A stretch of DNA of 64,000 bases from Zanthoxylum bungeanum (Eukaryota; Streptophyta; Magnoliopsida; Sapindales; Rutaceae). Where the stretch lies: contig SKCR01036132.1 in NCBI GenBank assembly GCA_019454045.1, positions 42,339 through 106,338 of the forward strand. Direction: 5' to 3'. How positions within the stretch are numbered: the stretch's first letter is position 1; every line of letters starts with the position of its first letter. The notes under the pieces were generated by a model, which saw only the letters and a program-made list of their open reading frames with translations, did no database searches and was not told the origin of the DNA. Shown here piece after piece: positions 2,746 through 63,776 of this stretch. The position numbers and the translations under genes are program-made.

Positions 2746-2750
2746 CGTAG

Positions 2751-23914: not shown

Positions 23915-23920
23915 TTTGCC

Positions 23921-33610: not shown

Positions 33611-35524
33611 TGATGAGTGGTAAATATATAACTTTTTCCCACTCATTTAACCTAATATTTTGTATAGTTTCTTGAGTCTTGTGAATATTTTGATGTGTTT
33701 TGTGTTATTTTGTAGATAAATAAAGTTTCAGGACATTCTGGAGGTGATTTGGAGCAAAACTGTGAAAATTGGCAAAAAGGGCAAAATGGTAATTTCTCGC
33801 GTCGCGCCGCGCAAAGCATCGGCGTCGCGACGCCTAAAGTGCGCCGAGGGCTGCTATCATGCGCCGGGTCAACGGGTCAGAATCTGAAAAGTTGACTTTG
33901 CTAATTTGCGCCGTGCCACGTGTCACAATCACAGAAGATTTGCTAACGTGCGCTGCCACGTGTCATCATCCTACGATGCCGACAATCATCATCTATGCTA
34001 TCTTGCACCGTGCCACGTGTCGACATCTCAACGGAGTTACTAATGTGCGCCGGTGCCACGTGTCGTGATCCGACGCTGCCGACAATTGCCCTCAGCGTGA
34101 CGTAAGCAATGACGTCATGAACAGTGCCACGTCATCGGATAAGAATCTGAGCCGGTGAATCAGCAAGTGACACGTGTCACTGTAGCTGGCGTCGCGATGC
34201 GGAACCCTTTGGCATCGCGACGCTGGACCCCTATCCGCGCCTATAAATTGAGCTCGATATTTCAGAAGTTGTTGTACCTTCCTCTCTCTTTAATTCTTCC
34301 TAAAGAGAGAGTTTCTCTCTCTAGTTTATTTTTATTTTACTTTTTACTTTGTAAATAATTTTAATTACGTTCTGTAGTAATAATAATTTTACTTTTGAAT
34401 AGTAGTAGTAATTTATTTTTACCTTTTACTTTCTACAGTTTTTACTATTTACCATGAGGAGGTAATTTCTCCAGCTAGGGTAAAAGGTAATTCTTTTACT
34501 GTTACTATTTAGATTAATCTCCCTTAAAAATAATATATTCACTATTTAAAATATTGACTTAAAAATGATACCGCCAGATTGGTCGGTTGGTAATTAAATA
34601 TTAATTCCGCCTTTATGGCTGGTTATTTTGGTTCCGCCTTTATGGCTGGTTATTTTGGTTCCGCCTTTATGGCTGGTTAAACTTAATTTAAAGTTAATAT
34701 ATTATATTAAGGGAGATATCTAAATAGTATTTAGTAGAAGCAATTCCTTTTACTTTAGCATTTTATTTTATTTTACTTTTCAGTTTTACTTTATGTCTTT
34801 TACTTTTCAGTATTTTTACTTTATGCCTTTTACTTTTAAGTATTTACTAGTCCTAGTTATGTGTTAGTTTTCTGAGGTTGTGATGACTTTTAATATCACC
34901 GGTTTATAAGGGATTATTTTATAGTTTGGGTAATTTAAAGGTTTACTTATTAAATCTTAAGTTTAATGCTTCTTGTTGTCTGATCACCAATAAGATTGAT
35001 ATGGTAAATCTAAAATGAACTAGACATAGGGATTTTAGATTTCAGCCTTAAATTTAATAGCCCACGATCTTCCTTGAGGATAGATAACCCTTTAATAGAT
35101 TTCCTTATAGGATAGGAATATACCTGTCGGGCGGGGGTAGCCATAATTGGAACTTAATCTTAATGAATCTAGATAATTTGGTTGACATAGACATATGGTT
35201 CAATTGGGTTAAACTGGGTATTTGTAGTTGACCATCGGAAGAGGCTTTTACATAATTTAGTGTTCCAGGTTAGTAAACCGATTTATTACACAAACATAAA
35301 ATAATTACTTTATCTTTTAAATGATATTAGAATGATTCACAACCCTAGATCTTTGTGTCTTTTGTTATTTTCCTTAGTATTTTCTTTTGTCTTTTTATTT
35401 ATTTATTTATTTTGTAAAACCACTTTCAACCAATCAAACAATCATTCTCTTCTTCATTTAATTAGATATCTGTAAATAAATAGATTCAATAATTAATAGC
35501 AATAGTAGGAATTAAGTCCTCGTG
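33611..35524 (+). mobile_element. Athila-like LTR G3, 3' truncated
   Basis: It begins TGATGAGTGGTAAATAT and follows the G1 LTR in order up to AATTAAGTCCTCGTGG at 35524. There the last 80 or so bases (ending CGCCGGTCA) are missing and C1 gag resumes. Compared with C2, about 100 bp of C1 gag is also missing at this junction, so a deletion removed the LTR end and neighbouring gag together. No target duplication survives. Confidence 0.88.
33917..34248 (+). promoter_or_regulatory. G3 U3 promoter: five CACGTG sites and TATA box
   Basis: CACGTG occurs at 33917, 33957, 34014, 34057 and 34171, most within GCCACGTGTC. A CTATAAATTGAGCTC TATA region follows at 34241-34255, then a pyrimidine-rich start region. 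GCCACGTGTC is the reverse complement of the known ABRE/G-box GACACGTGGC. Spacing is 40-115 bp. Confidence 0.6.
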
Positions 35525-37879: not shown

Positions 37880-39181
37880 TGTTAGTGTTCCTAGAACATG
37901 CCAATGATCTCTAAGATGATTTAGTGTGTGAATATTCAAAGAAGTTGCGGAATAAACTTACAATGATCGGATTTGATGGATGTATGAAGTTCAAAACTTT
38001 TGATCCTTTGTTGAAGCTCCAATCTTTGCCTTGTGTTCCAAACTCAAGGGATTAGTTTCCCTAACACCTTGTATGACTCCTTGAAAGTGCTTAGGGAGAA
38101 AGGAAGCTCACGGAAATTGATGGAAGAATGAGAGAGTTTTTTTTGTTTGATTTTTTGATTTCTAAAATCAATTACCAAATCAACTTCCAAAGTTGGTATA
38201 TGGTTTAATTTCAAAAAATAAAATAATGAAATGTGTTGAGATTGGTTAGTGTGAATTACAAGCAATCTAAGCTTACACTCAACAATTAACAACTTCCATC
38301 ACATGTCTAATGTGTGATGTAAGTCAAGTGGGTCCCACCACTTTTAAATTCCAAATTTAAATCGAATAATCTCAACACGCAACTTCGCTCGGGCTCGGGT
38401 TCGTTTAATTCTGAAATAAACGAATTTGTCATTGTGACATAATTAAATCTAATTTAATTAAATAATTATGCCTTGCAAAATTATTATTAAAGTCGCTTAC
38501 GAATTAATTCTAAATTAATTCGTTTGCCCGAATTAAAATCCAGTTTAAATTCCGCATTGAAATCTAATTTCAATTAATATATCAAATATATTATTTAATC
38601 GATTAATTCCAAATTAATCGTTCTCTCTCTTCTATCCGAATTTTATTCCAGATAAATTTTTACCGCAATTAATCCTAGATTAATTTTTCTCTCTTATAAT
38701 TAATCCTAGATTAATTCTGTTCGAGTCAAATGTCATCGGTGAATCTTTGGGAAGCGACCCATGAGATTCCTGGATATGTTGGCAGTAAATCCTGTCGTCG
38801 GACTATCTGAACACGCACGTACCCCCGTACCACATTCTTACCGATTTACAAGACATGGTTGGCTTCTAGCATAGTACCGTGCCTACCCAATTCTCCAAAA
38901 ATATTCTTTTAAGGAATACATAATCTTTATCAAGCGTAGTATACTAAGTATTGCGTATTACGATCCAGTATCGGATGTTACATGCTAGGCTTGGGGCTGA
39001 AATTATGTCTGCCCAGTATAAAGCATATATCGCATCACTAGCAACTAGTCTCTTTAATCGGATAATCATGACCTTATCATATTATCTCGATAGTTGCAAC
39101 ATATTCCAGTACCAGTTCTGTATCCTACGTGATCATCATCTCCATATGACTGAAGTGACACTTCCATCTTGACATCACACC
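37880..39181 (-). mobile_element. C1 5' LTR, U5-side part
   Basis: It starts TGTTAGTGTTCCTAG on the plus strand and follows the C2 LTR loosely at first, then closely (TATCCCGATAGTTGCAACAT, GATCATCATCTCCATATGAC). It is cut at 39181 by G1 and continues at 51998. Confidence 0.9.
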
Positions 39182-39578
39182 TGATGAGTGGTAAATGTAT
39201 CACTATTTCCCATTCATTTGACCTAATATTTTATATAGTTTCTTGAGTTTTGTGAATATTTTGATGTGTTTTGTGTTATTTTGTAGATAAATAAAGTTTC
39301 AGGACACTCTGGAGGTGATTTGGGACCAAAACAGTGAAAAACTGACAAAAGGGCAAAATTGTAATTTTCAGCGTCGCGACGCGCAAGCCTTTGGCGTCGT
39401 GACACCTAACGTGCGCCTTTGCTAACATGCACCGGGGACACATGTCAGAATCTAAGAAGTTTGACTTTGCTAACTTGCACCGTGACAAGTGTCAACATCA
39501 CAGCCGATCTGCTAACGTGAGCCGTACCATATGTCATCATCCTATGGTGCCGACAATCGCCATCGCCACATGTCGTCC

Positions 39579-39870
39579 CACGTGTCAGCCACGTTATCAC
39601 CATGTCAGCAGAAGACCAAGTCAACATTGCCACATCATCATCAACCAATCATCGCTTGCCACGTGTCGCAATCCTATCGTGCTGACAATCGTCATCGCCA
39701 CGTGTCGCCACATCATCACCACGTCAGCGCAACGTCAGCACAATTATTGATTTAATCATCCACATCACCATATCATCGGATAAGAATCTGTGCGGACCAA
39801 TCAGCGCGTGACACGTCTTTGCGTCGCGACGCGAAACTGTTCGCGCGTCGCGACGCGAAGACCCTATAAA
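39579..39870 (+). promoter_or_regulatory. G1 5' LTR promoter region
   Basis: CACGTG occurs at 39579, 39660 and 39699, with several CCACGTCA-type sites. Two GCGTCGCGACGC palindromes follow at 39821 and 39845, then CTATAAA at 39864-39870. The layout matches G0, G3 and the 3' LTR. Confidence 0.55.
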
Positions 39871-40460
39871 CGCCTTTAAATTCAGCTCAAAATTTTAGTT
39901 TCAGATGTACCTTCCTCTCTCTAATTCTCTGAGTAAATAAGGAGTTGGTATCTAGTTTTCTTTTAATTTCAGTTTTGTAATTAATTTAATTTACTTTCTG
40001 TAATAGTAATAGTAATTTACTTTTTTTACTTTTTCAATTTTTACTATTCAGCTATGATGAGGTAACTTCTCCATGCTAGGGTGAAAGATAAATCTTTTAC
40101 TATTGCTATTTAGATTAATCTCCCTTAATTATAATATATTCACTATTTAAAATTTGACTTAACGAGGATACCGCTATATTGGTCGATTGGTAATCAATTA
40201 TAAACTGGTTTTAACTTGACTAAGCATGGATACCGCCTGGTTGGTCGGTTGGTAATTACCGCCTATATGGCAGGTTTATGGACAAATAATGATACCGCCT
40301 ATATGGCTGGTCGGACTTAATTTGACTTAATCAGGTTACCGCCTATATGGCTGGTTGGTAAAATCATCACAATTTAATATATTATATTGATGGAGATATC
40401 TAAAATAGTAGTAGTAAAAGTAGATCCTTTAACCCTAGCAATTTATTTAATTTTACTTTT

Positions 40461-41116
40461 CAGTATTTTACTTTACCACATTTACTTTTCAGTATTTTAC
40501 TTTATGTCTTTTATTTTACTAGCCCTAGTTATGTGTCGTAACTAAGTTAGTTATCTAGGGTTGTGATGAATTCCAATATCACCGGTTTATAAGGGGTTAA
40601 ATTATGGTTTGGGTAATATAAAAGTTTATTTATTGAGTCTTAGTCTTAATGCTTCTTGTTAACTCGCCATTAATAAGATTGATTCGGTAAACTTAAAATG
40701 AAATTGGAAAAAGTATTTTAGGTTTAAGACCCTAGACACTATAACCCACGATCTTCCTTGAGGATAGATAACCATTTAATAGATTTTTTCAGCATTTACT
40801 TTACCACATTTACTTTTCAGTATTTTACTTTATGTATTTTATTTTACTAGCCCTAGTTATGTGTCGTAACTAAGTTAGTTATCTAGGGTTGTGATGAATT
40901 CCAATATCACCGGTTTATAAGGGGTTAAATTATGGTTTAGGTAATATAAAAGTTTATTTATTGAGTCTTAGTCTTAATGCTTCTTGTTAACTGGCCATTA
41001 ATAATATTGATTCGGTAAACTTAAAATGAACTTGGAAAAGCGATTTTAGGTTTAAGACCCTAGACTCTATAACCTACGATCTTCCTTGAGGATAGATGAC
41101 CCTTTAATAGATTTCC
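40461..41116 (+). repeat. Tandem duplication of about 328 bp inside the G1 5' LTR
   Basis: The first unit (40461-40788) and second unit (40789-41116) both run from CAG(T/C)ATTT...TTACCACATTTACTTTTCAG, through GCCCTAGTTATGTGTCGTAAC, to AGGATAGAT(A/G)ACC. The 3' LTR has a single unit that resembles the second more (CAGCATTTACTT). The duplication therefore arose after insertion. Confidence 0.85.
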
Positions 41117-41603
41117 TTACATGATAGGAATATACCTGTCGGGCGGGGGTAGCCATAATTGGAACTTAATCTTAATGAATTCAGATAACTTAATTGACAT
41201 ATGAATATGATTAATTGGGTTACACTGGGTATTTGTAATTGATTATCGGAAGAGACTTTTACATAATTTTGTGTTCCAGGTTAATAAATCAATATATCAC
41301 CCAACTGTAAGATAACCACTTCATCTTTAAATAATATTGGAAGGATTCACAACCCTGTATAGTTTTCTAAATTTGAATTTTCTTTAATCTACTTTCACGC
41401 CATTTTATTTACTTATTTTAATTTTTAATTTTGTAAGTCACAATCTCAATCAAAACAATCAATCCATTAGATATTAGTAATCATTCGGCCTCATAAAAAT
41501 TAATAGCATAGGTATTAAGTCATCGTTGGATCGATACTTTTTATACTACTTGAACGATACGTGCGTTTGGGTTATACGCGTGTGATTACGCCGGTCACGT
41601 TTT

Positions 41604-41617
41604 TGGCACCGTTGCCG
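41604..41617 (+). other. G1 primer-binding site (tRNA-Asp type)
   Basis: TGGCACCGTTGCCG, one base from the TGGCGCCGTTGCCG complement of the plant tRNA-Asp 3' end, the primer known for Athila-type elements. Past 41617 the match fades. Confidence 0.85.
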
Positions 41618-41729: not shown

Positions 41730-43060
41730 ATGAGACGAACCAGAAGCTTTGAACTTCGACCGCTTGACCCATAAATTGAAAGAACCACCAGACAGTTGAG
41801 AAGGGAAAGACGAGAAGGCCAATAAGCAATTATCATTATAGAACCTGAACCTTTAGAAGTTGCACCACCAATTCTCATTCGAGACAGAACCATTCTGGTG
41901 GTTGACGGCTTCATTTCCTATATTGTACTTCCTCCCTAACCAGCAAATACGTGTGACATCAAAACATGTATCTAGATGATTTAACAGTCAGTACAATTTA
42001 GAGGGAATTCAACTGAATATCCTAATGCCCACATCAGCAACTTCCTGGAAGTTTGTGGCACTTTCAATTACAACCGAGGAGCTGAAGAAGCAATGAGACT
42101 GCGATTTTTTCCATATTCCCTGAAAGATAGAGCTAAGGCATGGCTACATTCACTACCAGTAGGTTCCATCACAACTTGGAACAATATAGCCACCAAATTC
42201 CTTGCAAAGTACTTTCCACCAGCCAGAATAGCAAAACTGATGAATGACATCACGTCTTTTGTACAACTTGACTCGGAGACTCTCTACGAAGCTTGGGAAA
42301 GGTACAAAGATTCGCTCCAGAAATGTCCTCACCAGGAGATTCCAAAATGGCTTCAAGTTCAAACTTTCTAAAATGGACTTCCTGGACTGATGAGAACCAC
42401 AATTGATGCTACTACTGGAGGAGCTTTGATGGCAAAAGGAGAAGATCAAGTCTGGGACCTAATCGAAGAAATGGCTAACAAAAACTCTTTGTGGCCAACA
42501 GAAAGAAGCATGATCCAAAGAATTGCAGGAATTTATGAAGTTGGAGCAAATACAGCAGTCAGTGCCAAACTGGATCAGATATGCAAATTCATGGAGACTC
42601 TCAGCATGCAAGAATCCATTAGTTCACCATATAGAGGAGCACCAAAGTCAACCCAACCTGAAGAAACGGTGAATTGTATCAATAATTTCAACAGATAGGG
42701 GAACAATCCATATTCCAACACCTACAACCCATGGTGGAGGAATCATCCCGGCTTTTCATGGAGCAACAATTCAAGGCAAAAGAACAATCCACCACCTGGA
42801 TTCCAACAGCAGAACTATCCACCACCTGGATTTCAACAGCTGGACAAAGGTCAGGAACATGAAAAAGAACCAGTAATGACAGAAGTGCTAGCTCAGTTAA
42901 AAAAATATGAAGCTATGTTTCAAAGCCAATAAGTTTCTATCAAAGCACTGGAGAATCAAATTGGACAACTGGCCAATGCTCAGAGTTACAAATCGCTAGG
43001 AAATCTTCCCAGAAATACGAAACCAAATCCAATGAACCGAGGGAAGGAGCAATGTCAAGC
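41730..43060 (+). pseudogene. G1 gag
   Basis: ATG 41730 gives MRRTRSFELRPLDP and then an early stop. The conserved Athila gag core lies at 42010-42370: NAHISNFLEVCGTFNYN, RLRFFPYSLKDRAKAWLHSL, TTWNNIATKFLAKYFPPARI, LYEAWERYKDSLQKCPHQEI. A stop (42369) interrupts FYNGLPG. Downstream are MANKNSLWPTERS, a Pro- and Gln-rich stretch (42770-42840) and the LENQIGQLAN helix. At least five in-frame stops are visible. Gag would form cytoplasmic particles around element RNA. Confidence 0.88.
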
Positions 43061-44094
43061 CATTACTTTGAAAAGTGGTACTGAGATCAATAAAGATGTT
43101 GGAATCAAGGCATCAATTGAAGAAGTTCCAAAAGAAGCAGAGCAACAGATGGAGGAAAAATAAGCAAAGGAAAAAGAACCAGAAAGAATCACTCCAACTC
43201 CATTTTTTCCACAGTGTCTTCAGAAAAATAAACTCGACAAGCAGTTTGCTCGTTTCTTGGAGGTTTTCAAAAAGCTGCACATCAACATCCCATTTGCAGA
43301 ACCCTTGGAAGAAATGCCCAGCTATGTCAAATTCATGAAAGATATTCTTTCATGAAAATGAAGATTGGGAGACTACGAGACAGTTGCATTGACGGAAGAA
43401 TGCAGTGCCATCATTCAGAGGAAACTTCCCCTAAAGTTGAAAGATCCTGGCAGTTTCACAGTCTCATGCACCATTGGATAACATTATATAGGTAAAGCTT
43501 TATGTGATTTAGGTGCTAGTGTTAACTTGATGCCTTTTTCTATTTACAGGAATTGTAAATTGGAGAAGCAATGCCTACCTCGGTCTCATTGCAACTTGTT
43601 GATCGAACACTCGTATTTCCGAGAGGAGTTATTGAAGATGTGTTGGTCAAAGTAGACAAACTCATTCTCCCAGCAGATTTCATCATCCTTGACATGGAAG
43701 AAGACAAAAAAGTGCCTATCATTCTTGGGAGACCATTCTTGGCTACAGGTAAAACTGTGATTGATGTGCAAAAATGAGAACTGACCATGAAAGTGCGGAC
43801 CAAGAAGTTACCTTCAATGTTTTCAAAGTAATGAAATTCACTAGCGATGAAAAGAATGGGGAATGTTTCAGAGTTGATGTTGTTGATAGTATCGTTCAGG
43901 ATACTGAGCCAAATCCTATGGATAAACTTGAAGCTTGCATCACCAACATGACTAACAGCGAGCTAGATGCTGAAATCCTAGAATGTATCAACTACCTTGA
44001 CAAACCATTCCAATTCAAATCAACACCACCAGTTGAAAGTTTGGAACTTCCGAAGAAAGATCGAATCAAACCTTCAATTGAAGAACCACCATAG
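43061..44094 (+). pseudogene. G1 protease and flanking linkers
   Basis: Before the protease come FPQCLQKNKLDKQFARFLEV and FKKLHINIPFAEPLEEMPSY, then YETVALTEECSAIIQRKLPL. The protease active site is ALCDLGASVNLMPFSIYR (about 43500-43552). After a frame change near 43560 follow MPTSVSLQLVDRTLVFPRGV and VPIILGRPFLATG, the flap and C-terminal helix region. The 43774-44094 frame is a variable linker to RT. The order and wording match Athila polyproteins. Several stops make it non-functional. Confidence 0.85.
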
Positions 44095-45777
44095 TTGGAA
44101 CTGAATTTACATCCGAGCCATCTCAGGTATGCATTTCTTGGAAACTCTTCTAAATTACCTATTATTATTCCTTCATCACTAACATTGGAGCAGGAAGAAA
44201 AATTGCTGAGAGTGTTACGAGAACACAAGAAAGTCATTGGCTGGACTATAGCAGACATTCGAGACATCAGTCCATCATTTTGCATGCATAAGATTCTGAT
44301 GAACGATGAGTACAAACCCACAGTGAAGCATCAAAAGAGACTCAATCCAATCATGAAGGAGGTCGTGAAGAAAGAAATCATCAAATGGTTGGATGCTGGC
44401 ATAATTTACCTAATCTCAGACAGCAGTTGGGTGAGTCCTATGTAGTGTGTACCAATAAAATGAGGAATTATTGTTGTCACCAATGAAAAGAACGAGCTGA
44501 TTCCAACAAGAACAGTGATTGGATGAAGAGTATGCATGGACTACCAGAAGCTAAACAAAGCCACACGAAAAGACCATTTTCCGCTACCATTCATTGATCA
44601 GATTCTAGAGAGACTAGCGGGACATGAGTTCTATTACTTTCTGGACGGATATTTAGGGTACAATCAGATTGCCATCGCACCAGAAGATCAGGAGAAAACC
44701 ACATTTACATATCTGTATGGTACTTTTGCTTTCCGCAGAATGCCATTTGGATTATGTAATGCCCCTGCCACATTTCAGCGTTGCATAATGGCCATCTTCT
44801 CAAACATGCTGGAGCAGAGTATGAAAGTGTTTAAGGATGACTTCTCTGTGTTTGGAGATTCTTTTGACCACTGCTTGTAAAATCTGGAACAGGTATTACA
44901 AAGGTGCGAAGATACAAACATGGTACTCAATTGGGAGAAATGCCACTTCATGATACATGAATGCATTGTTCTTGGACACCGGATCTCAGAAAGGGGAATC
45001 AAGGTAGAAAAAGCAAAGATCGAGATAATTGAAAAATTACCTCCACCAACATCTGTCAAAGGGATTCGGAGCTTTCTCGGACATGCAGGTTTTTACAGTA
45101 GATTTATCAAAGATTTTTCCAAGATTGCTAAACCTCTGTGCAACCTTCTGGAGAAGGATATTCCTTTCAACTTCACCAAAGAATGCCAGGAAGCTTTTGA
45201 GATCTTAAAATTGAAGCTGATTTCTGCTTCTATCATTGTAGCACCTGACTGGACCCTTCCATTTGAAGTAATGTGTGATGCTAGTGATTTTGCTGTAGGC
45301 GCAGTTTTGGGACAACGTAAAGTAAATATTTTCCACACCATTTATTACTCCAGCAGAATTTTGAATGAAGCTCAACTCAACTACACAACCACTGAAAAGG
45401 AGTTGCTTGCAGTTGTGTTCGCTTTTGACAAATTCCGCTCCTATCTACTAGGTCCCAAAATGGTGGTCTACACAGATCATTCAGCAATCAAATATTTGAT
45501 CACAAAGAAAGATGCCAAACCCAGATTGATCCGTTGGATACTTCTTCTACAAGAATTTGACGTGGAGATTCGAGACAGGAAAGTGACAGAAAACCAGGTG
45601 GTAGATCATTTATCGAGACTTGAGAATGGAGAAACAGCTAGCACAGAATTGATAATCAAAGAAACTTTTCCAGATGAACAACTATTTGCCATGAAACAAC
45701 ACGATGTCCCTTGGCATGCTGACTATGTCAACTTTATTGTATCACGAAAATTGCCGTTGGAATGGACAACTCAGTAA
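44095..45777 (+). pseudogene. G1 reverse transcriptase and RNase H
   Basis: Visible in order: LPIIIPSSLTLEQEEKLLRV, IGWTIADIRDISPSFCMHKI (44150-44290), KKEIIKWLDAGIIYLISDSS, MDYQKLNKATRKDHFPLPFI (44536-), GTFAFRRMPFGLCNAPATFQ, and the catalytic VFKDDFSVFG (44827-44856). VFMDDFSVFG is usual; both Asp are kept. RNase H has [29 protein letters not shown] and [16 protein letters not shown], supplying D, E and D. Stops at 44443, within the following 90 bp and at 44878 break it. The 45777 stop follows KLPLEWTTQ at the start of the integrase linker. The 286-codon RNase H frame is intact. Confidence 0.93.
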
Positions 45778-47022
45778 CAGAAGAAATTCTTCAAAGAAGT
45801 CAAACACTATGTCTGGGATGAGCCGTACTTGTTCAAACGCTGTGTTGATCAATTACTGAGACGGTGTGTTCCACATGAGGAGGTCAATAGTGTTCTTCAA
45901 AACTGTCATTCATCACCATATGGCGGACACTTCAGCGGAAACAAAACTGCAACCAAAGTCCTTCAATCAGGTTTGTTCTGGCCCAATCTTTTTAAAGATG
46001 CTTATCTTTTTGCTCTTCAATGTGACAGGTGACAGAGAACGGGAAATATTTCGAGGAGAAATGAAGGACCTTTGCAAAATATTTTAGAAGTGGAGATATT
46101 CGATGTGTGGGGTATTGATTTTATGGGACCTTTTGTTCCATTATTCGGAAACCTGTACATACTAGTTGGAGTTGAATATGTCTCCAAATGGGTTGAAACA
46201 ATTGCATTGTCATCCAATGATTCGAAAGTGGTGATCAAGTTCCTTAAAAAGAATATTTTCACTCAGTTCGGAAAATCTCGTGCAATTATCAGTGATGGTG
46301 GCTCACATTTCTGCAACAGATACTTTGATGCACTCCTATCCAAATATGGAGTTACTCATAAGGTTGCCACAGCCTACCATCCACAGTCAAATGGACAAGT
46401 TGAAGTTTCAAACAGGGAAATCAAAAGAATCTTGGAGAAAATCGTTGGATCATCAAGGAGGGACTGGTCTACAAAACTAGATGACGCATTATGGGCCTAC
46501 AGGAAACCTTACAAGACACCCATTAGTATGTCACCATATCGAATGGTGTTTGGGAAAGCGTCTCATCTGCCAGTTGAGCTTGAACACAAGGCGTACTGGG
46601 CACTGAAGAAGTTTACTCTCGATCCACAAGCTGTATGAGAGAAAAGACTTCACCAAATCAATGAATTGGAGGAATTTCACCTACAGGCTTATGAGAATGC
46701 CAGATTGTACAAAGAAAAGACCAAGAAATGGCATGACCGAAAAATAGTGCACAGACAATTGGAACCAAGGCAACAGATGTTGTTGTACAACTCGAGGTTG
46801 AAACTTTTCCCTGGAAAGTTGAAATTAAGGTGGTTTAGTCCATTTGTGATCACTCAGGTTTTACCATACGGAGCTGTTGAGTTACTGGATCCCAACACCA
46901 ACAACACATTCAAGGTTAACAGTCAGCGTGTCAAGCACTACTGGGAGAATCATTTGAGCGACAAAAAGAAATTGTCACACTTTCAGATCCAGCATAACGT
47001 TCGGGCAGTCATGTCTAGCTGA
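45778..47022 (+). pseudogene. G1 integrase
   Basis: The N-terminal zinc region has HSSPYGGHFSGNKTATKVLQ and FALQCDR, where the second Cys of the HHCC finger is a TGA stop (46030-46032). The core has WGIDFMGPF (first D), [17 protein letters not shown] (second D) and [16 protein letters not shown] (catalytic E). The tail includes [20 protein letters not shown] and SRLKLFPGKLKLRWFSPFVI, the GPY/F-like module, ending at TGA 47020. A stop at 46636 interrupts it. No chromodomain is seen, which is normal for Athila. Confidence 0.9.
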
Positions 47023-47135
47023 CGACGTTAAACTTAGCGCTAGCTGGGAGGTAACCCATGCAAACTTTGTATATATTGTGATTCGGTGTGATTTCATTTT
47101 ATGTGTTTAGTTTTTACACGTTAAGTTATTTCATA

Positions 47136-47624
47136 ATGGATGAAGTTCTCGCAAATCTTCACAAGCAATTTCCTTCTTTCCCTCAAAAATCTCTGATGAA
47201 AGTTTACAAAGGTCGCTTAGAACTGATGAGACTACTGATGATCAAAGGAATTCCTACTGATATTCGTTGGATTATTGAAGCACATGTCCGATTGGCAGGT
47301 GAGTCTTTTGACTCTTTTATTTCACATCTGTCTGGTCTAGGAAGGAGCACGTATGCTAAAAAGAGAATAGCCAAAAGAATGTGTGTTTGTTATAAATGTG
47401 CTCATATGTTTTGTGATACTCGTTGTCGTTCTTTAGGAATGGTGTCTGATAACCGTGAAGATAAGATTAATTTCATTAGGGATGGCTTGAGTAATGAGTC
47501 TTTGGATGACATATCTAAAACTCTTGAGATGCATCCCGGTGGATATGTGTATCACGAAATTCGCGTGTTATATACACAATTCCAAAAAGAAAGACAACAG
47601 TTAAGTCTCGGGAATCTGACTTAA
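47136..47624 (+). CDS. Unrecognised 162-residue accessory protein of G1
   Basis: An uninterrupted frame from ATG 47136 to TAA 47622, 114 bp after the integrase stop, on the coding strand and inside the element. I do not recognise the family. It opens MDEVLANLHKQFPSFPQKSL, has a charged helical first half, then a basic and Cys-rich patch AKKRIAKRMCVCYKCAHMFC followed by DTRCRSLGMVS (C, C, C and C spaced like a small zinc-binding knuckle), then an acidic and helical end. No signal peptide or membrane segment is evident, so it is unlike a classical env-like protein. It stays open while gag and pol around it carry many stops, which hints at recent constraint or chance. It could be a captured host gene or a lineage-specific regulator. 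No ribosome-site logic applies in plants; expression would need splicing or a subgenomic RNA. Confidence 0.6.
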   Translation: MDEVLANLHKQFPSFPQKSLMKVYKGRLELMRLLMIKGIPTDIRWIIEAHVRLAGESFDSFISHLSGLGRSTYAKKRIAKRMCVCYKCAHMFCDTRCRSLGMVSDNREDKINFIRDGLSNESLDDISKTLEMHPGGYVYHEIRVLYTQFQKERQQLSLGNLT

Positions 47625-47936
47625 AAAGACCATGTTTGCCAATTTATGAGAAAATTGGATAGAAAGCTTGTCCTTGACGCATAGACGTCAATAAAGCCGC
47701 TACTTTTCTTGTACATATTATATCTCTTTGTCTTTTACTAATAATTAGGATTTGTTTTGTTGTTTTCTTTTATTTTCTCCGACAGGATCCAGACCTTTTT
47801 GACTATCACGATTTATTTTACTGTTTAACTAATAATTGTCATTTGGCAGGTACTAGTGCTATTATTTTTACTCACCCTTTTCAGGTGTTATAAATTCAAC
47901 TCATCATTGCACTTTTGAAGGCATCCAGAGTAAAAC
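47625..47936 (+). other. Spacer with pyrimidine-rich tracts and candidate splice acceptors
   Basis: No gene. Three pyrimidine-rich tracts end in CAG near 47785 (TTTTCTCCGACAG), 47849 (CATTTGGCAG) and 47884 (CACCCTTTTCAG). They lie upstream of the LOG-like ATG at 47937, suitable positions for acceptors giving a spliced RNA for the downstream gene. Use is unproven. Confidence 0.35.
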
Positions 47937-48588
47937 ATGGAAGCCACTTCAAGAAGACGAGTTGAAAACATCTGTGTTTTACGGTATTAGTGTTGGTGCT
48001 AAACCAGAATATGTAGCGGCAGCAGAGGAATTGGGTCGAGTCTTAGCTGTAAGGAATATGCACTTAGTATATGGCGGTGGCAATCTTGGACTTATGGGGA
48101 TCGTTTCAAAGGCCGTACATGAAGGAGGCAGTCAAGTCTTGGGAATCATTCCAAAACCCTTGGTGGAAGCGAATCTTATTGGACCATCAAACGGAGAAGA
48201 ACTAATCGTGCCAGGTATGTTTGAATGACTGGTAGAAATGATTAATTGTGTTGATACTTTTATTGCTTTGCCAGGTTGCTTGGGCACAATGGAGGAAATT
48301 TTTACAGTACTATCTTGGGCGAACCTGAACATACACCAGAAACCGCTTGGACTGTACAACATTGATGGATTTTATGATTTTCTTTGTGTGTTTCTTGATG
48401 ATGCTCGGAGAAATGGGTTCGTGACAAAACCTCTGAAAGAACTCCTCTTCACTGCCAGAACTACCCAGGATTTACTTGACCAAATCTTGGCCTTTGAACC
48501 ATAAATTGACCATGTCCTTTCTAAGATAAAATGGTACGAGGATGATCGTGGTAAGAGGCGTCGTATAAATCTGGATCTTAACCTGTAA
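47937..48588 (+). pseudogene. LOG-like cytokinin riboside monophosphate phosphoribohydrolase, captured in G1
   Basis: ATG 47937 gives MEATSRRRVENICVF. After a net +1 frame change near 47979 (simplest: loss of two T from a T run), it continues YGISVGAKPEYVAAAEELGR, LVYGGGNLGLMGIVSKAVHE, VLGIIPKPLVEANL, VDTFIALPGCLGTMEEIFTV, LSWANLNIHQKPLGLYNIDG. That is the plant LOG fold in order. LOG enzymes release active cytokinin bases from nucleotide precursors in cytosol and nucleus. GGG.LGLMG and PGG.GT.EE are family motifs; here PGG is PGC. TGA 48226 replaces the conserved Arg of the MHQRKAEM-type motif, and TAA 48502 follows AFEP. The same frame runs on through HVLSKIKWYEDDRGKRRRIN to LDLNL and TAA 48586. 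No introns interrupt it, whereas plant LOG genes have several, so it came from a processed mRNA. It sits between integrase and 3' LTR on the element's coding strand. Confidence 0.88.
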
Positions 48589-48656
48589 CTTTTCATTTAG
48601 ATGTAGAATTTCAGCTAACCAGGTATGGTTTTCTATACTCTTCTACTACTGTTTAA

Positions 48657-48674
48657 GACATTGGGGACAATGTC
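48657..48674 (+). other. Small palindrome GACATTGGGGACAATGTC
   Basis: A perfect 7-bp stem (GACATTG/CAATGTC) around GGGA, directly followed by a purine tract at 48685-48697. It may be an RNA hairpin or mark an internal polypurine tract. Confidence 0.5.
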
Positions 48675-49112
48675 TCATTTATGTTTGGGGGAGGGGAATA
48701 GTTAATTAGTACCTTGTTTTTGTTGTTAGTCCAAAATTTTTCGAAAAATACAAAAAATTGAATTTTTTTTAGAAAAATTACAAAAATATTTTGTGTTTTT
48801 ATATTATTAATTTGATTAATCAGGTGAAATTGGAACAAGATAGCTGTGTAAGGAGTTTCCACTCCTGAGACGTATCTCAAACTTATTTTCGGAACAAGTT
48901 AATTTTTATTTATTTCATTTTAATTATTTAATTTGTGAATTCTCCATAAAACTGATTAAAATGGATCTTCATATGCTTAGTTGACAGGTATTATCAACAT
49001 ACATGGTAACATACAGACATAAGTTGTAATTGACAAGTTTGTAATATTCAGTGCTCTATTTTAATTGGAGGAAGCATCTAAAAAAGCGATGGGATAAAAA
49101 AAACGTCTAATA

Positions 49113-49888: not shown

Positions 49889-49923
49889 GCTCGAGGACTA
49901 GCAAAATGTTAGGTTTTGGGGTG
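49889..49923 (+). other. G1 polypurine tract region
   Basis: CTCGAGGACTAGC, then AAAATGTTAGGTTTTGGGGTG lies immediately 5' of the 3' LTR start TGATGAG, where the plus-strand primer should form. The tract is interrupted by pyrimidines, so it may be degraded. Confidence 0.55.
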
Positions 49924-51992
49924 TGATGAGTGGTACATGTATCACTATTTCCAACTCATTTGACCTAATATTTTGTATAGTTTCTTGAGTTTTGTGAATA
50001 TTTTGATGTGTTATGTGTTATTTTGTAGATTAATAAAGTTTCAGGACACTCTGGAGGAAATTTGGGGCCAAAACAGTGAAAAACAGACAAAAGGGAAAAA
50101 ATGTAATTTTCAGCGTCGTGACGCGCAACGCCTAACGTGCGCCATTTGCTAACATGCGGCAGGGACACGTGTCAAAATCTGTGAAGTTTGACTTTGCTAA
50201 CTTGCGTTGTGACACATGTTAACATCACAGTCGATCTGCTAACGTGAGTTGTGCCACATGTCATCATCCTATGGTGCCGACAATCGCCATCGCCACGTGT
50301 TGCCCCACGTGTCAGCCACGTCATCACCACGTCAGCAGAATATCGAGTCAACATTGCCACGTCACCGCCACGTCATCATAAACCAATCATCATTTGCCAC
50401 GTGTCGCAATCCTATGGTGCCGACAATCGCCATCGCCATGTGTTGCCACATCAACGCCACATCATCACCACGTCAGCGCCACATTAGTACAATTATTGAT
50501 TTAATCATCCACATCGCCACGTCATCGAATAAGAATCTGCACGGACCAATCAGCGCGTGACACGTCTTTGCGTCGCGACGTGAAACTATTCACGCGTCGC
50601 GATGCGGAGACCCTATCGACGCCTATAAATTCAGCTCGAAATTTCAATTTCATATGTACATTCCTCTCTGTAATTCTCTGAGTAAATAAGGAGTTTGTAT
50701 CTAGTTTTCTTTTAATTTCAGTTTTGTAATTAATTTAATTTTACTTTCTGTAATAGTAATAGTAATTTACTTTTTTTTCTTTTTCAGTTTTTACTATTCA
50801 GCTATGATGAGGTAACTTCTCCCTGCTAGGGTGAAAGGTAAATCTTTTACTATTGCTATTTAGATTAATCTCCCTTAATTATAATATATTCACTATTAAA
50901 ATTTGACTTAACGAGGATACCGCTATATTGGTCGATGGTAATCAATTATAAATTGGTTTTAACTTGACTAAGCATGGATATCGCCTGGTTGGTCGGTTGG
51001 TAATTACCGCCTATATGGCAGGTTTATGGACAAATAATGATACCACCTATATGGCTGGTCGGACTTAATTTGACTTAATCAGGTCACCCCCTATATGGCT
51101 GGTTGGTAAAATCATCACAAGTTAATATATCATATTGAGGGAGATATCTAAAATAGTAGTAGTAAAAGTAGATCCTTTAACCCTAGCAATTTATTTAATT
51201 TTACTTTTCAGCATTTACTTAACCGCATTTACTTTTCAGTATTTTACTTTATGCATTTTATTTTAACAGCCCTAGTTATGTGTCGTAACTAAGTTAGTTA
51301 TCTAGGGTTGTGATGAATTCCAATATCACCGGTTATAAGGGGTTAAATTATGGTTTGGGTAATATAAAAGTTTATTTATTGAGTCTTAGTCTTAATGCTT
51401 CTTGTTAACTGGCCTTTAATAAGATTGATTCGGTAAACTTAAAATGAACTTGGAAAAGAGATTTTAGGTTTAAGACCCTAGACTCTATAACCTACGATCT
51501 TCCTTGAGGATAGAGGACCCTTTAATAGATTTCCTTACATGATATGAATATACCTGTCGGGCGGGGGTAGCCATAATTAGAACTTAATCTTAATGAATTC
51601 AGATAACTTAATTGACATAGGAATATGATTAATTGGGTTACACTGGGTATTTGTAATTGATTATCGGAAGAGACTTTTACATAATTTTATTTTCCAGGTT
51701 AATAAACCAATTATCACTCAACTGTAAGATAACCACTTCATCTTTAAATAATATTGGAAGGATTCAAAACCCTGTATAGTTTTATAAATTTGAATTTTCT
51801 TTAATATACTTTCACGTCATTTTATTTACTTATTTTAATTTTTAATTTTGTAAGTCACAATCTCAATCAAAACAATCAATCCATTAGATACTAGTAATCA
51901 TTCGGCCTCATAAAAATTAATAGCATAAGTATTAAGTCATTGTGAGATCGATACTTTTTATACTACTTGAACGTGTGTGATTACGCCGGTCA
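49924..51992 (+). mobile_element. G1 3' LTR
   Basis: 2069 bp, TGATGAGTGG...CGCCGGTCA. It lacks the duplication of the 5' LTR and has lost about 17 bp near its end (ACTTGAACGTGTGTGATTACG against the 5' copy). Confidence 0.93.
50166..50630 (+). promoter_or_regulatory. G1 3' LTR promoter-like region
   Basis: CACGTG at 50166, 50294, 50306 and 50398, many CCACGTCA sites between, a GCGTCGCGACG motif near 50571, and TATAAAT at 50624-50630. It could drive read-out transcription into flanking DNA. Confidence 0.55.
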
Positions 51993-52609
51993 ATACCCAA
52001 TACACTATGATTCTCAATAAACCCAGAAGAGTCGTACACAGAACATGTTAAAGCCCCGGACGACGAAAACCAAAGCGTATTGATTGTCGCAAGTATTAGC
52101 GATGCAAGTCTCAGGTTAAGACCAAATACATCCAAGTCTTAGGTTAAGACCAAATACACCTATCCTGATTCGGATTCCCATAGACACATAGTCATACTAC
52201 CAATGGGATTCCGAGGGGTATATTTAGAGCGAAGCTATTTCTGTACCATCGGCAAACACAACCTCCTATCACACTTGCATAAGTATCCAATACTTAAATA
52301 TATGAGAATTATGCCGTTAAGCTTCCATAACGCGCACAAGTGCAATACTAGTTTATTCCGCATTATCGATGTCCAGTCTAGATAATACTACGACTAAGGA
52401 TATTTAATGATTAAACCGTTCATGGATTGATAATGTCTCATATCTTAGTAATCCGGAACTAATCATAAAGACTTTTATCATTTATATATGTTCAAGTAAT
52501 CTAATTACAAAATGATAAAATAGCAATTTCCTTTGTCACATAGTTAATTTGTACAAAAACCACAATGTCTTTTACAAATAGTGATGCTATGGGTCATAAT
52601 TGTCCAACA
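51993..52609 (-). mobile_element. C1 5' LTR, U3-side part
   Basis: It starts with the ATACC target duplication, then CAATACACTATGATTCTC, continuing the LTR cut at 39181. It ends GGTCATAATTGTCCAACA at 52609. A 28-bp tandem duplication (AAGTCT.AGGTTAAGACCAAATACA) lies at 52105-52160. Confidence 0.9.
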
Positions 52610-57497: not shown

Positions 57498-58733
57498 GAA
57501 AGTGCAACACATCTCTGCAACCTAGACTACCATGCCACAGCTCCCCCTGAGAGAGTAATCAGATACCCCAAAGTAGACTTTTGGGAATCCACATCTTCTG
57601 CCATATCTGAATCGGTGTATCCCATCAACACTGGTTCGCTGCTTCCAAAAACATAGTCTCATTTTGGATGTGCCTCGTAGATACCGCATAATCCATTTGA
57701 TGGCATTCCAGTGTTCTTGTCCTGGGTTTGACATAAACCGGCTGACCAATCAAACTGTGTGTGCTAAATCTGGCCTCGTGCACACCATGGCATACATAAG
57801 ACTTCCCATTGCTGAGGTGTATGGAACCTGTTTCATTTCCTCCTTCTCTGTCTCAGTAGAGGGGCTCTGTTGTGTACTCAATATAAAATGGGTAGCAAGA
57901 GGAGTGCTAACCGCTTTAGCATTGTCCATCTTGAATCTCTGAAGTACCTTCTCGATGTACTCCTCCTGTGATAAGTATAATCTCATGGCTTTCCGATCAC
58001 AACCGATCTTGATGCCAAGAATCTGTTTAGCTGGCCCTAAGTCTTTCATCTCAAAATACTTACTCAGTTGCTGCTTTAAATTATCAATCCTCGATTGATT
58101 CTGGCCAACTATCAACATATCATCTACATACAGTAGTAAGATGATAAAGTCATTTCGTCAGAAAATTTCTGAACGAAAACACAATGGTCTGAAGTGGTCT
58201 TCTTGTATCCCTACTCCCCTATAACTGACTCGAACTTCACATACCACTGTCTCGGTGCATGTCTCAAACCGTAGAGGCTTTTCCTGATTCTGCACATATA
58301 GTCCTCTTTCCCTCTGACTCTGAAGCCTTCTGGTTGCTCCATATAAATTTCTTCTTCCAGATCTCCGTGAAGAAATGCGGCCTTGACATCCATCTGCTCA
58401 ACTTCCAGGTCGAGGCTTGCTGCTAAGCTGAGTACTACCCGGATGGATGACATCTTCACAACTGGAGAGAAGATTTCATCAAAGTCAATGTCTTTCCTCT
58501 GATTGAATCCCTTGACAACTAATCTGGCTTTGTACCAGGGTTGTGAAGTGTGCTCCTGTTGCTTCACCCTGTACACCCATTTGTTCTTAAAAGCTCTTTT
58601 GCCTCTTGGAAATTTCACCAACTCAAAAGTGTAATTGTCATGCAAAGATTTCATCTCATCTTGCATGGCTTCCTCCCACTTTTCTTTGTCTTATGTTTCC
58701 ACAGCCTCCTGGAAGCTCTCGGGTTCTCCCCCG
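57498..58733 (-). pseudogene. C3 reverse transcriptase
   Basis: Frame 58666-58211: MQDEMKSLHDNYTFELVKFP, WYKARLVVKGFNQRKDIDFD, EQMDVKAAFLHGDLEEEIYM and KSLYGLRHAPRQWYVKFES. After a shift near 58200 comes LYVDDMLIVGQNQSRI (YVDD near 58119-58130), then LGPAKQILGIKIGCDRKAMR, and YTSAMGSLMYAMVCTRPDLA (57860-57770). Later frames (57749-57522) cover the connection domain to the RNase H start. The YVDD box is intact, but shifts and a stop near 57748 inactivate the protein. Confidence 0.92.
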
Positions 58734-60744
58734 TGTTGGGTTTATATTAGGTCCCAATGATCAAATCAAGCAATGAAACAAATATGTGAATACTTGTAAA
58801 AGCATGGCGGAATCATACTTACAACAATCGGTTATAGTGATGCGAGGAACAACAAAATCTCCAAGCTTTATGTCCATGAGGCTCTCGGCTTTCTTCAAAA
58901 ATTTTAGCTCCAAATTCGGCCATGGTCCTCCATTGATGCTCCAAGCTCCAAGTGGTGATTCCATGCTCACAAGTCGATTTCCCTATCACCTTCGTAAGTC
59001 TCCGGAAGTGTGCTAGCACCTTGGAAATTTTACCACAAAATTCCCTAAGCTTCTCCTTCATCTCACGGTTTTGTGCAGAAAAATGAAGAAGAAATGCCCA
59101 TTGGGCGAGAACAAGAGAAGAGAGATGAGAGAAAATGTGTGTTATTTTTTGGTTGTTGGAGATTTGTGTATCTAATACACAAATTCAACTTTCAAAAAGA
59201 CAAAGGCATTTAAGCCTACATCCACCACCATCAACTTCCATCACAATTCATATCAAAAGTGACTAGACATCACTTCACTCAAAGTGATGTGACTTCCATC
59301 ACTTGATTGACTAGTGATTTGACGCTTGATGTGACTTGTGGGCCGCACTTTAATTCGCAATGCGAGTGCGTCCGCAAACACTCATGGGCTCGGGTTTGCT
59401 AATTCCAAATTAACGAATTTTCCGTTGCGACGTAATTAAATAATTATGCCTAGCGAAATCATTATTCACGTCGCTAACGAATTAATTCTAAATTAACTCA
59501 TTTGCACGAATTAAAATCCAATTTCAATTCCGCGTCGAAATCTAATTTCGTTTAATATATCGAATATATTAATTTATCGATTATTTCCAAATTAATCGCT
59601 CTCTCTCTCTCTTTAAGTAATATTTTATCCCAGATAAAATATATTCGCAATTAATCCCAGATTAATTTTCTCTCTATCATTAATTAATCCCATATTAATA
59701 AAGTGCGAGTCATACGTCATCGGTGAATCTTCGGGAAGCAACCAATGAGATCCCTAGATATGTTGGCAGTAAATCCGGTCGTTGGACTATCCGAACACGT
59801 ACGTACCTAGTACTACGTTTTTACCGATTTACAAGACATGGTTGGCTTCTAGCAAAGCATCATGCCTACCCAATTCTCCAGAAATATTCTTACTGGAATA
59901 AGTGATCTACATCAGGCGTATTATACGTAGTATTGTGTATTTCGATCCAGCATCGGATGTCACGTGCAAGGCCTGAGGCTGGAAATATTTCTGCCATGTA
60001 CGAAGCACATATCGGATCTCTGGTAACTAGTCTCTATAATCGGAGAAACATGACCTAGTCATAATATCCCGATAGCTGCAGCATATGAGAGAACGAGTTC
60101 CGTATCCTACATGATCATCATCTCCACTATGACTGGAGTGATACTTCCATCTCGACATCACACCCAATACACTACGATTCTCAATATATCCAGAAGAGGT
60201 GTACACAGAACCTGTTAAAGCCCTGGACAACCAAAACCAAAGTACATTGATTGTCGCAAGTATTAGCGGTGCAAGTCTCAGGTTAAGACCAAATACACCT
60301 ACCCTGATTCGGACTTCCATAGACACATAGTCATACTACTAATGGAATTCCGATGGGTCTATCCAGAGCGAAGCTGTTTCCGTACCATCGGTAAACACAA
60401 CCTCATATTACACTTGCATGAGTATACTATACCCAAATATATGAGAACTATGTCGTTATGCTCCAATAACACGCACAAGTGCAATACTAGTCTATTCCGC
60501 ATTATCGATGTCCAGTCTCGATAATACTACGACTAGGGATATTTAATGATTAAACCTTCGTGGATTGATACTGTCTCATATCTTATCAATCTGGAACTAA
60601 TCATATGGACCTTTCATCATTTATACATCTTGGTGATCTAATCACAAATGATAAAAGAGCAATTTCCTTTGTCACATAGTTAATTTGTACAACAACACCA
60701 TGATCTGTACAAATAGTGATGCTATGGGTCATAACTGTCCAACA
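58734..60744 (-). mobile_element. Solo LTR of the C1/C2 copia family
   Basis: Starts TGTTGGGTTTATATTAGG and ends CATAACTGTCCAACA on the plus strand. Perfect CCCCG duplications lie at 58729-58733 and 60745-60749. 2011 bp. The U3 side (60000-60744) is close to C1/C2. The U5 side (58734-59300) is a distinct variant, showing that subfamilies differ mostly there. It interrupts C3 between integrase and RT. Confidence 0.95.
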
Positions 60745-62284
60745 CCCCGTCAGTAAGCAGCACATACTCGTATGCAGAGTATTTCGTTAAAGGTCGCCTT
60801 TCTCTAGGAGACCTTCTCTGTGGAACTGTTGGTGTAGCTTCTGGTACTGGTGGTTGATCACGATCATCATCTCTGGGAGCTTCATCACATGTACCCTCAT
60901 GTCTGGGAACCTTATCTTCAACTTGTACTGGCACCGATGTTTGAGGTTCTGGATTCACATCTCTGTATTGCTGGGGTATTGTCTTCATCTCCTTTCTGAT
61001 ATCTTTTATGGTCTGGTCTTCGACGAAGACAATATCTCGGCTTCTGACAATTTTCTTTTCAATATGATCATAGAGTTTGTAGCCGAAAGCATCCTGACCA
61101 TAGCCAATAAAGACACACTTTCACGTCTTTGCATCAAGCTTGGATCTCTCGTCCTTTGGGATGTGTACAAAAGCTTTGCACCCAAAGACATGCAAGTGTT
61201 CATAAGACACTTCTTTACCTGTCTAGGCTTGGTTAGGAACATTACCTTTCAGTGCGACTGCTGGGGACATGTTCAAAACATGTACTGTTGTGTTGAGTGT
61301 CTCCCCCCAAAATGTATTCGGCAGCTTGGCTTGTGACAGCAAGCTTCTGACCCTTTCGCACAAGGTTCTTTTCATCCTCTCAGCTAGGCCATTCAGCTGA
61401 GGTGTCTTTGGAGGTGTCGTTTGATGTCGGATTCCTTGCATCTTGCAGTACTGATCAAACGGACCTATGTATTCTCCACCGTTGTCTGTTCTGATGCATT
61501 TGAGTTTCTTGCCGGTTTCTCTCTCCACTAGGGCGTGAAACTCCTTGAACACTCTCAGCACTTGGTCTTTTCTCTTAAAGGTGTATACCAATGTCTTCCT
61601 TGAATGGTCGTCTATAAATGTCACAAAGTAAAGTGACCCTCCAAGTGTTCGTGTCTGCATCAGACCACATACATCTGAATGTATGAGATCAAGTACCTCC
61701 GGTTTCCACTGAGGCGAGTAGTTCTGGAAGGACACTCTGTTCTGCTTTCCAGCTATGCAGTGTTCACACTTCCGTAAGTAAGAGTTCTTCAACTTGGGAA
61801 GAATATTCTTCATGCGTAGTATTTCCATCCATGTTTGACTCATGTGACCGAGCTTTTTATGTCATAGCTTGGCTGCCTCATTACTGTTGACTGTATTTAT
61901 GTTACTATTGGAAATCTTAGCATGCATCAAATACAAAGTTGAATCTTTCTTACCTCGTGCCACCACCATTGATCCTTTAGTGAGCTTCCAGGTGCCGTCA
62001 CTAAAGGTGCTGCAGAAACCTTCATCATTCAGCTTACCTATTGAGATCAGGTTTAACCGGATATCTGGGATATTCTTGACTCCCTTTAACACTAGCCTTG
62101 TCCCGTTGTCTGTTTCAAGGCAGATGTCTCCAATACCAACGGCTTTGGACTGTCCGTCATTCCCCATCCTTACAGCACCGTAGTCTCCTGATGTGTAAGA
62201 TGAAAAGAAGTCTCTGCGAGATGTGGCATGTATGGAGGCGCCACTATCTATCACCCAACTAGTCTCGTGGCTGGCAAGATTCAC
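60745..62284 (-). pseudogene. C3 protease and integrase
   Basis: Frame 62284-61862 holds the protease site VIDSGASIHATSRRDFF and GVKNIPDIRLNLISIGKL. Frame 61843-61223 has the GAG-pre-integrase end RKCEHCIAGKQ and the integrase core LIHSDVCG, CIRTDNGGEYIGPFDQYCKM and NGLAERMKRTLCERVRSLLS (D, D, E kept). WGETLNTTVHVLNMSP closes the core. The linker to RT (61242-60722) has a basic VPQRRSPRERRPLTKYS patch and is frame-broken. The stop between the two main frames is at about 61861. Confidence 0.9.
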
Positions 62285-62290
62285 AACATC

Positions 62291-63144
62291 TTATTCGTAT
62301 ATAATACATAATTCTTTGGAGGTTTTGTCGGTGGTAGTAGCAACTCTTTCTTGATTAGAGTCACAATCTCTCCTGGACTGCTCGTTCTTCAGTTTGTAGC
62401 AATCTCTCTTCATATGGCCTTTCTTCTTACAGTAGAAACATTCGATTTCCCTCGTTCTTGATTTCCCCCGGTTCTTGTCTGATTTACCTGGGCCTCTGCT
62501 TTTACTCCTCCCCCTTCTGGTGTTCTTCTCCGTCACTGGAGCTTCTAAGGTTGAGGTTGATGCTGATGCTGACTCATGCATTCTCGTCCTCTTTTCTTCC
62601 TCGAAGATCTTGGTTTTCGCCATCTCCATAGTGACTTTCCCATCTGCGGCTGAATTGATCACCGTAGATCTGAACGTTTCCCATGATTTTGGTAACGTAT
62701 TAAGGAGTATTAAGCCATTTACCTCATCACCGAAGTCTATGCCCAATCCAGACAATTCTTTGATGATGCTGAGGAAATCGTTGATATGGTCCGTCACAGC
62801 TGTACCTTCCTGGTATTTCAACCCCATCATCTTCTTGATGTAGTACAACTTGTTGTTGCCAGTCTTTGCTCGAAAAGCTCCTCCAGTTTTCTCCATATGA
62901 CACGTGCATTTGTTTCTTCACTAACATGGTTCAAGATACTATCGTCGATCCACTGACAAATAGTACTACATATTTTCTGGTGAAGATTGTTCCACCTTGC
63001 TTCGGACATTTCTTCTGGTTTCTCCTCCAGAAATACCGATCCATCATAATCCTTCACATATAGAAGGTCTTTCATCCTTCCTCTCCATGTGAAATAATTG
63101 GTACTAGTCAACAAAATCATTTTTCCGACACCCCCTTCCATCAT
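62291..63144 (-). pseudogene. C3 gag
   Basis: ATG 63144 gives MMEGGVGKMILLTSTNYFTW, then RGRMKDLLYVKDYDG and VIWRKLEELF. A frame change near 62870 leads to RAKTGNNKLYYIKKMMGLKY, VTDHINDFLSIIKELSGLGI and LPKSWETFRSTVINSAADGK (UBN2-type gag). A basic Ser/Arg region and the zinc knuckle CFYCKKKGHMKRDC (about 62430-62390) follow. The rest is open to 62291. Gag packages RNA; only one clear frameshift separates it from an intact protein. Confidence 0.9.
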
Positions 63145-63776
63145 AACAATTCTGAGTAGAATTTCAAAAAACGGACCTCACTGTTGCGTCCGGAATGGTC
63201 TAAAATGGTGGAAATGACACTTCGTTTGTCAAAATCCGACACAGGGACCAAATTACAAATTTCAGAAATTACATGGGTCAAAGTGCAATTTCCGAAAGTT
63301 CAGGGTCCAAATAGCAATTACGGAAAAGTTTAGGGACTAAATTTTAATTTCCAGAAGTACAGGGACCTATATGAAATTTACCAGGTTTATGCTGACGTGG
63401 CAAGTGTTGCTGATGTGGCTGACACGTGGCGGATTACGTGGCAGCTGACTGGTCGATGACGTGGCGCTGACTGGGTGCTGACTGTGCGACACGTGGCGAT
63501 GACTGGGCGCTGACTGGACTGCTGATGTGGCGTCGTCTTCTTCCTTGGAATGTGCGTGCAGCACGTGTCTACGACTGGCGGCGCGTGGGGAAGAGTCTTT
63601 AAGGCGCGTGACGACTGCTGGGACCTCCGTTTGATTGCCGAAAATACCACCGTGCTCGTCTCGCCGTGAAAAGTCCGATGGTATGCTCAAAATCGATTTT
63701 CGACAACTTTCGTCGGAACCGACTTTCCGAACCGAATCTCTGTTACCGAGTTTCGGGATCCCACCGTGGAACCTTA
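63145..63776 (-). other. C3 leader with an ACGTGGC-rich array
   Basis: No gene. 63394-63533 carries repeated (TG)ACGTGGC, GACACGTGGC and GATGTGGC units separated by GCTGACTGG-type spacers. These are ABRE/G-box-like on either strand and lie between PBS and gag. Confidence 0.55.

Follow-up and report, generated by a model that had tools for sequence, protein, structure and literature searches.

Within the window, a stretch of 64,000 nucleotides of Zanthoxylum bungeanum DNA, the retrotransposon that we call G1 is very probably a decayed copy of an old Athila-type lineage that carries a two-gene module between its integrase and its 3′ LTR: an ORF resembling the cysteine-rich nucleic-acid-binding proteins (NABP/CRP) of carlaviruses and allied viruses, followed by a homologue of the LONELY GUY (LOG) enzymes. 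The first-pass annotation had placed a LOG homologue at 47937–48588 on the plus strand between the integrase and the 3′ LTR, and matches to PDB entry 2a33 and to Pfam bear this out; the ORF upstream of it, at 47136–47624, was absent from that annotation. LOG cargo in plant LTR elements is already known; searches of the open-licence PMC literature gave no report of an NABP-like ORF in an LTR element.

G1 is bounded by two plus-strand LTRs with TG...CA termini (39182–41597 and 49924–51992) and by target-site duplications that differ at one base, ACACC (39177–39181) adjoining the 5′ LTR and ATACC (51993–51997) on the 3′ side. An uninterrupted target site, ACACC, is found at 17583–17587, within another repeat copy of the window. 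The two LTRs are 94.5% identical, with a K2P distance of 0.058 over 2046 aligned columns; the 5′ LTR also holds a 329-nt tandem duplication at 40457–41114, its copies 96% identical, which the 3′ LTR lacks. After the 5′ LTR comes a primer-binding-site-like sequence, TGGCACCGTTGCCG (41604–41617, plus strand), of which 13 of 14 bases agree with the tRNA-Asp form, the sequences diverging beyond. By eye, a polypurine-tract-like sequence is present at the 3′ LTR (49911–49923, plus strand), and another purine tract of the element lies at 48687–48696. The coding fragments for gag, reverse transcriptase, RNase H and integrase follow one another in this order, which is of the Ty3/gypsy type: a gag fragment at 41985–42371 (plus strand; PF03732, E 5.1e-18) and a pol part at 44527–47022 (plus strand; PF00078, PF17917, PF17921 and PF00665) with reverse transcriptase, RNase H and the zinc-binding, core and C-terminal regions of integrase, its frame interrupted by in-frame stops. 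The domain scan detected no chromodomain, with no family match in 46639–47019 past the integrase, and, among the ORFs it covered from 41985 to 47621, a part of the broken frames, no additional RNase H of the archaeal type. A second RNase H of this type marks Tat elements, in contrast to Athila, according to the excerpted text of PMC6317226; the absence of both features therefore fits Athila rather than Tat. Judged by its sequence, G1 fits a decayed Athila-type Ty3/gypsy element (OTA), in keeping with the carrier named in the first-pass annotation, and the LOG homologue lies inside it.

Other repeats share the window. Diverged pieces of the LTR family of G1, 60–77% identical, occur at 33611–35202 and 2056–2355; broken minus-strand ORFs at 18573–24859 and 57750–63177 resemble, by eye, Ty1/copia polyproteins, and a 281-residue plus-strand ORF at 9697–10542 resembles, also by eye, a hAT-type transposase.

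The LOG homologue was searched as the translation of 47937–48588, with an X at the first stop and the frames joined over the frameshift. In the PDB search, Arabidopsis At2g37210 (2a33) matches query residues 5–185 (E 3.3e-50) with no intron-sized gap in the alignment, and Pfam assigns the first half to PF18306 (1.6e-9) and the second to PF03641 (1.1e-20); neither half of the broken gene taken singly reaches an NCBIfam cut-off, the matches being sub-threshold. Two intact relatives, P0078 and P0080, are 84 and 81% identical to it, intact forms having 217 residues. By BLAST, P0078 matches 47974–48585 with 82% identity over 204 residues, and its residues 1–15 match 47937–47981 in a different frame, so that the whole protein aligns in two frames and 47937–48588 spans start codon to final stop. 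Given this end-to-end alignment, again with no intron-sized gap, the earlier description of the gene as nearly complete and intronless stands. P0078 is itself a member of the LOG family by TIGR00730 (173.7 bits, cut-off 96.35) and scores 114.4 bits on the equivalog NF058542, below its cut-off of 300 bits; plant LOGs outside the clade described below fail NF058542 as well (P0107, 137.9 bits; P0135, 131.8 bits), so this bacterial/archaeal cut-off does not discriminate here.

The copy in G1 is a pseudogene, with one frameshift (near 47974–47981) and two premature stops (48226–48228 and 48502–48504). The catalytic residues proposed for LOG are an arginine and a glutamate of the PGGxGTxxE motif (PMC4979012, in part); neither site is intact in the window, where the motif reads PGC in place of the expected PGG and the first premature stop falls on the position that this arginine occupies in 90 of the 104 relatives counted in the clade. 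The window copy ends in an LxLxL tail. With its LOG disrupted in this way, G1 cannot spread a functional hormone gene.

In a midpoint-rooted tree of 122 rows, the window LOG falls within a clade of 107 rows (support 98/89) that also contains P0053 from Rhamnella and P0077 from Citrus; AtLOG3 and AtLOG8 fall outside it, as do the MHERK-bearing LOGs of Xanthoceras. P0077 lies in the same 35-row part of the clade as the window (96/69) and P0053 in the other part (94/58), places that are unsure owing to the long branches of both. Motifs were counted in 104 clade rows, leaving out the window, P0053 and P0077, and in the 13 outside rows. PGGxGTxEE is kept in 80 of the 104 clade rows, and an LxLxL tail occurs in 78 (72 of 84 among rows of at least 200 residues); the outside rows have the arginine and PGGxGTxEE in 13 of 13 and the tail in 1 of 13. 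Where the arginine is not kept in the clade, there are 8 glutamines, 1 methionine and 5 rows that are not readable, and none of the 99 readable rows retains the lysine that follows it. The activity of the clade enzymes is uncertain on account of these substitutions. The predicted structure of P0078 (pTM 0.83) has pLDDT below 50 at residues 202–217, and the tail is thus predicted to be disordered, as expected of a short linear motif; with the LxLxL of EAR motifs, it is EAR-like. Three Populus proteins that public records call LOGL10 (P0119, P0132 and P0141) also belong to this transposon-linked clade and, from their place in the tree, may be genes of transposons that were taken for host genes in annotation.

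The accessory ORF between integrase and LOG (47136–47624, plus strand) is zinc-finger-like and ends at a TAA (47622–47624) about 20 codons short of its relatives, with homology reaching 47681. It matches PF05515 (Viral_NABP) with 30.6 bits, against a cut-off of 23, over profile positions 108–199 of 227, and PF01623 (Carla_C4) with 18.4 bits, under the cut-off of 20.9; the latter cut-off is reached by some relatives, for example P0001 (77% identical to the window ORF, 182 residues), P0020 and P0043. Searched as a single sequence, the ORF gave 77 homologues out of 154 candidates; with a profile, 710 out of 4006 candidates were homologues, and 120 of these 710 are listed. The named holders among the matches listed are Rhamnella, Citrus, Parasponia, Xanthoceras, Acer, Populus and Orobanche, which represent six eudicot families: Rhamnaceae, Rutaceae, Cannabaceae, Sapindaceae and Salicaceae among the rosids, and the asterid family Orobanchaceae. 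Some relatives (P0067 from Parasponia, and P0204) carry 'Viral nucleic acid binding' as their record name. Across 128 full-length relatives, a C-x2-C-x4-C-x3-C cluster is present in 104 and a basic stretch ahead of it in 101.

Such a match might arise from a generic basic zinc-finger peptide that has no common descent with the CRPs of flexiviruses, a reading that we consider unlikely. Consistent with it, Cys, Lys and Arg abound in the matched core, PF01623 stays sub-threshold in the window ORF and in some relatives, the profile has 0 matches among the solved structures of the PDB, and the viral contigs scanned with the window ORF, with the NABP alignment A1 and with P0078 gave 0 relatives each, just as no viral protein is found among the 120 listed of the 710 profile matches. 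The predicted structure of the NABP-like protein has a mean pLDDT of 66.7 and a pTM of 0.31. Against a generic peptide, the two Pfam families matched are both families of viral NABPs, one of them above its cut-off in the window; in a scan of 48 diverse relatives at E ≤ 0.01, PF01623 is matched by 45 and PF05515 by 44, the next family by only 3. CRPs are encoded towards the 3′ terminus of flexivirus RNA genomes; the ORF here is part of an LTR retrotransposon, and in the relative L001, described below, it comes after the integrase, so that it can be said at most to work like a CRP.

The pairing of the two genes recurs outside the window. Rhamnella P0053 and Citrus P0077 are single gene models in which NABP sequence is followed by LOG sequence, the NABP part being 56% identical across 90% of the query in P0053 and 66% identical across 34% in P0077, where it comprises the last third of NABP only. 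A domain rescan of both gave Pfam matches in the LOG parts and none for NABP; P0053 is listed with PF01623 in the precomputed domain list. A further Rhamnella model, P0056, joins what looks by eye like an integrase C terminus to NABP, with Pfam matches in the NABP part only. Three NABP–LOG pairs were thus seen, one in the window and two as gene models without DNA. In both the LOG and the NABP tree the window is nearer Citrus than Rhamnella (midpoint roots, three paired taxa), an agreement that is weak with three taxa and forks supported at 96/69, 94/58 and 90/65. Linkage of LOG and NABP through equal-sized contigs above 2500 nt produced one match (8723 nt, P0190/P0198), which we did not use because 51 of 400 shifted controls were as good (0.1275); over all sizes there were 7 such matches, compared with a mean of 6.25, and the comparison gave no significant evidence of linkage.

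A relative lacking LOG indicates where the gene sits. Alignment A1 gave 57 pattern matches in genome contigs, of which one is a relative, L001, with an intact integrase frame and an intact NABP but no LOG: about 160 bases after NABP comes the block that in the window follows LOG (48594–48691, plus strand, by local alignment). This block scores 64 against L001, and none of 500 single-base shuffles scores above 42. The window stretch upstream of LOG aligns to L001 at chance level (score 57, shuffle maximum 63), and the 5′ edge of the insertion therefore rests on the end of a BLAST match at 47704. L001 brackets the gene in this way, and LOG is an additional segment that lies within the interval from roughly 47704 to 48594. 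We prefer the reading that LOG was added to an NABP-bearing lineage; it could also have been lost in L001. The L001 sequence (positions 1–3330) comes from a MAG record assigned to Candidatus Nomurabacteria (contig DAIEQH010000041.1) and looks like plant contamination, as it holds a plant-type gypsy integrase and NABP.

These data bear on whether the window LOG is an independent processed pseudogene that landed in G1 after the insertion of G1 itself. Its lack of introns would suit such an origin, which we judge highly improbable and have rejected: the NABP–LOG gene models of Rhamnella and Citrus show the same arrangement, the window LOG groups with transposon-linked LOGs and not with AtLOG3 or AtLOG8, and by eye no poly(A) tail follows 48588. 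The first-pass annotation had named, as the outcome that would speak against capture, a LOG confined to this copy with its own target duplication or poly(A) tail; neither was found, the two gene models share the arrangement and the LOG-free L001 brackets the insertion, so that the case is not a one-off. The gene models, the intact relatives and the bracketing by L001 together identify LOG as cargo of the lineage.

For the lineage as a whole we propose that NABP was present first and that LOG was gained later, from the cDNA of a plant LOG gene; capture from processed mRNA would fit the missing introns. In intact elements, both proteins might be made from spliced LTR-driven RNA, which we put at about an even chance; CAGG acceptor-like sites precede LOG at 47783, 47847 and 47882. 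By analogy with viral CRPs, the NABP protein would then enter the nucleus, bind RNA and dampen silencing of the element, a step that we place slightly below an even chance. The LOG protein, in a step to which we give much the same standing, would remove ribose phosphate from cytokinin nucleotides, with more cytokinin and more cell division at the sites of element expression, and its LxLxL tail may recruit a co-repressor, although this last step seems to us improbable. Taken to its full extent, the proposal is that flexiviruses and an Athila-type lineage of rosids and an asterid came to share a silencing-suppressor-type gene by exchange between a retroelement and an RNA virus, and that one branch paired NABP with a LOG bearing an EAR-like tail, giving a host-manipulation module (less silencing, more cytokinin and division) that would favour copying in dividing, future germ-line cells. 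This full scenario is speculative and, as a whole, rather unlikely.

Alternatively, NABP and LOG may be captured passengers of no benefit to the element, a possibility to which we give somewhat more weight than to the full scenario, while still thinking it less probable than not. Both genes are broken in G1 and LOG is absent from L001, as passengers would allow; many relatives, however, retain full-length frames with kept motifs, including PGGxGTxEE in the 80 of 104 LOG rows and the cysteine cluster in the 104 of 128 full-length NABPs counted above, which speaks against it.

If the NABP ORF does share descent with the flexivirus CRPs, it would represent a counter-defence gene common to plant LTR elements and RNA viruses, and would bear on the origin of viral CRPs and on the means by which Athila-type elements evade silencing. 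Its LOG partner offers a testable case of a transposon acting on a growth hormone, and the Populus proteins P0119, P0132 and P0141 advise caution with plant LOGL10 annotations, some of which may be transposon genes.

Several known systems can be set beside G1. Steinbauerova et al. 2011 reportedly described two Athila-like elements with similarity to LOGL4. A 2022 study states its own result to be 'in line with' that work, reporting, in its excerpted text, that LTR consensus sequences from two Citrus species, C. sinensis and C. clementina, contain a YgdH (LOG) domain, as do those from Populus trichocarpa once the filter is relaxed (PMC9289625). With a LOG domain in plant LTR elements already published, a LOG-carrying element is known in kind, and the statement of the first-pass annotation that no LOG case was known was mistaken. 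Those Ty3/gypsy elements have the same cargo as G1, and Citrus and Populus proteins are among our matches too; an NABP-like ORF (by term search) and an LxLxL tail, both present in the G1 lineage, go unmentioned in the excerpted text of PMC9289625. According to PMC5408684 (in excerpt), earlier work on extra ORFs in plants had recognized homology in no more than two captured host ORFs.

Compared with the plant enzymes AtLOG3 (2a33) and AtLOG8 (1ydh), the clade shows family likeness over about 180 residues and retains PGGxGTxxE in most members, but it has the additional LxLxL tail, and the window copy is intronless. The outside rows read MHERK where most clade rows have MxxR[L/I/M/F], and two of them share 57% (P0107) and 54% (P0135) identity with P0078.

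The NABP/CRP proteins of carlaviruses, allexiviruses and mandariviruses (PF01623, PF05515) have in common with the G1 ORF a basic stretch and a zinc-finger-like Cys cluster; the G1 ORF, by contrast, belongs to an LTR retrotransposon and has conserved N- and C-terminal regions beyond the Pfam match. Viral CRPs, as described in part of PMC12172455, combine a nuclear localization signal with a zinc finger and suppress RNA silencing, and one of them is a transcription factor that causes hyperplasia. A piece resembling a flexivirus replicase is present in the cucumber genome with retrotransposon-like sequence nearby (PMC3136472, in excerpt); the excerpted text of PMC2714080, on virus sequences in plant genomes, contains nothing like NABP in an LTR element.

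Athila-type elements with 3′ extra ORFs resemble G1 in layout, with sense ORFs between pol and the 3′ LTR as in G1 (PMC6317226, PMC7264820 and PMC11728184, each in part). In the excerpted texts those ORFs resemble env or a transposase or have no known origin, and are not NABP-like as in G1; for the sunflower Tekay elements, a silencing-related role has likewise been proposed for the extra ORFs (PMC11728184).
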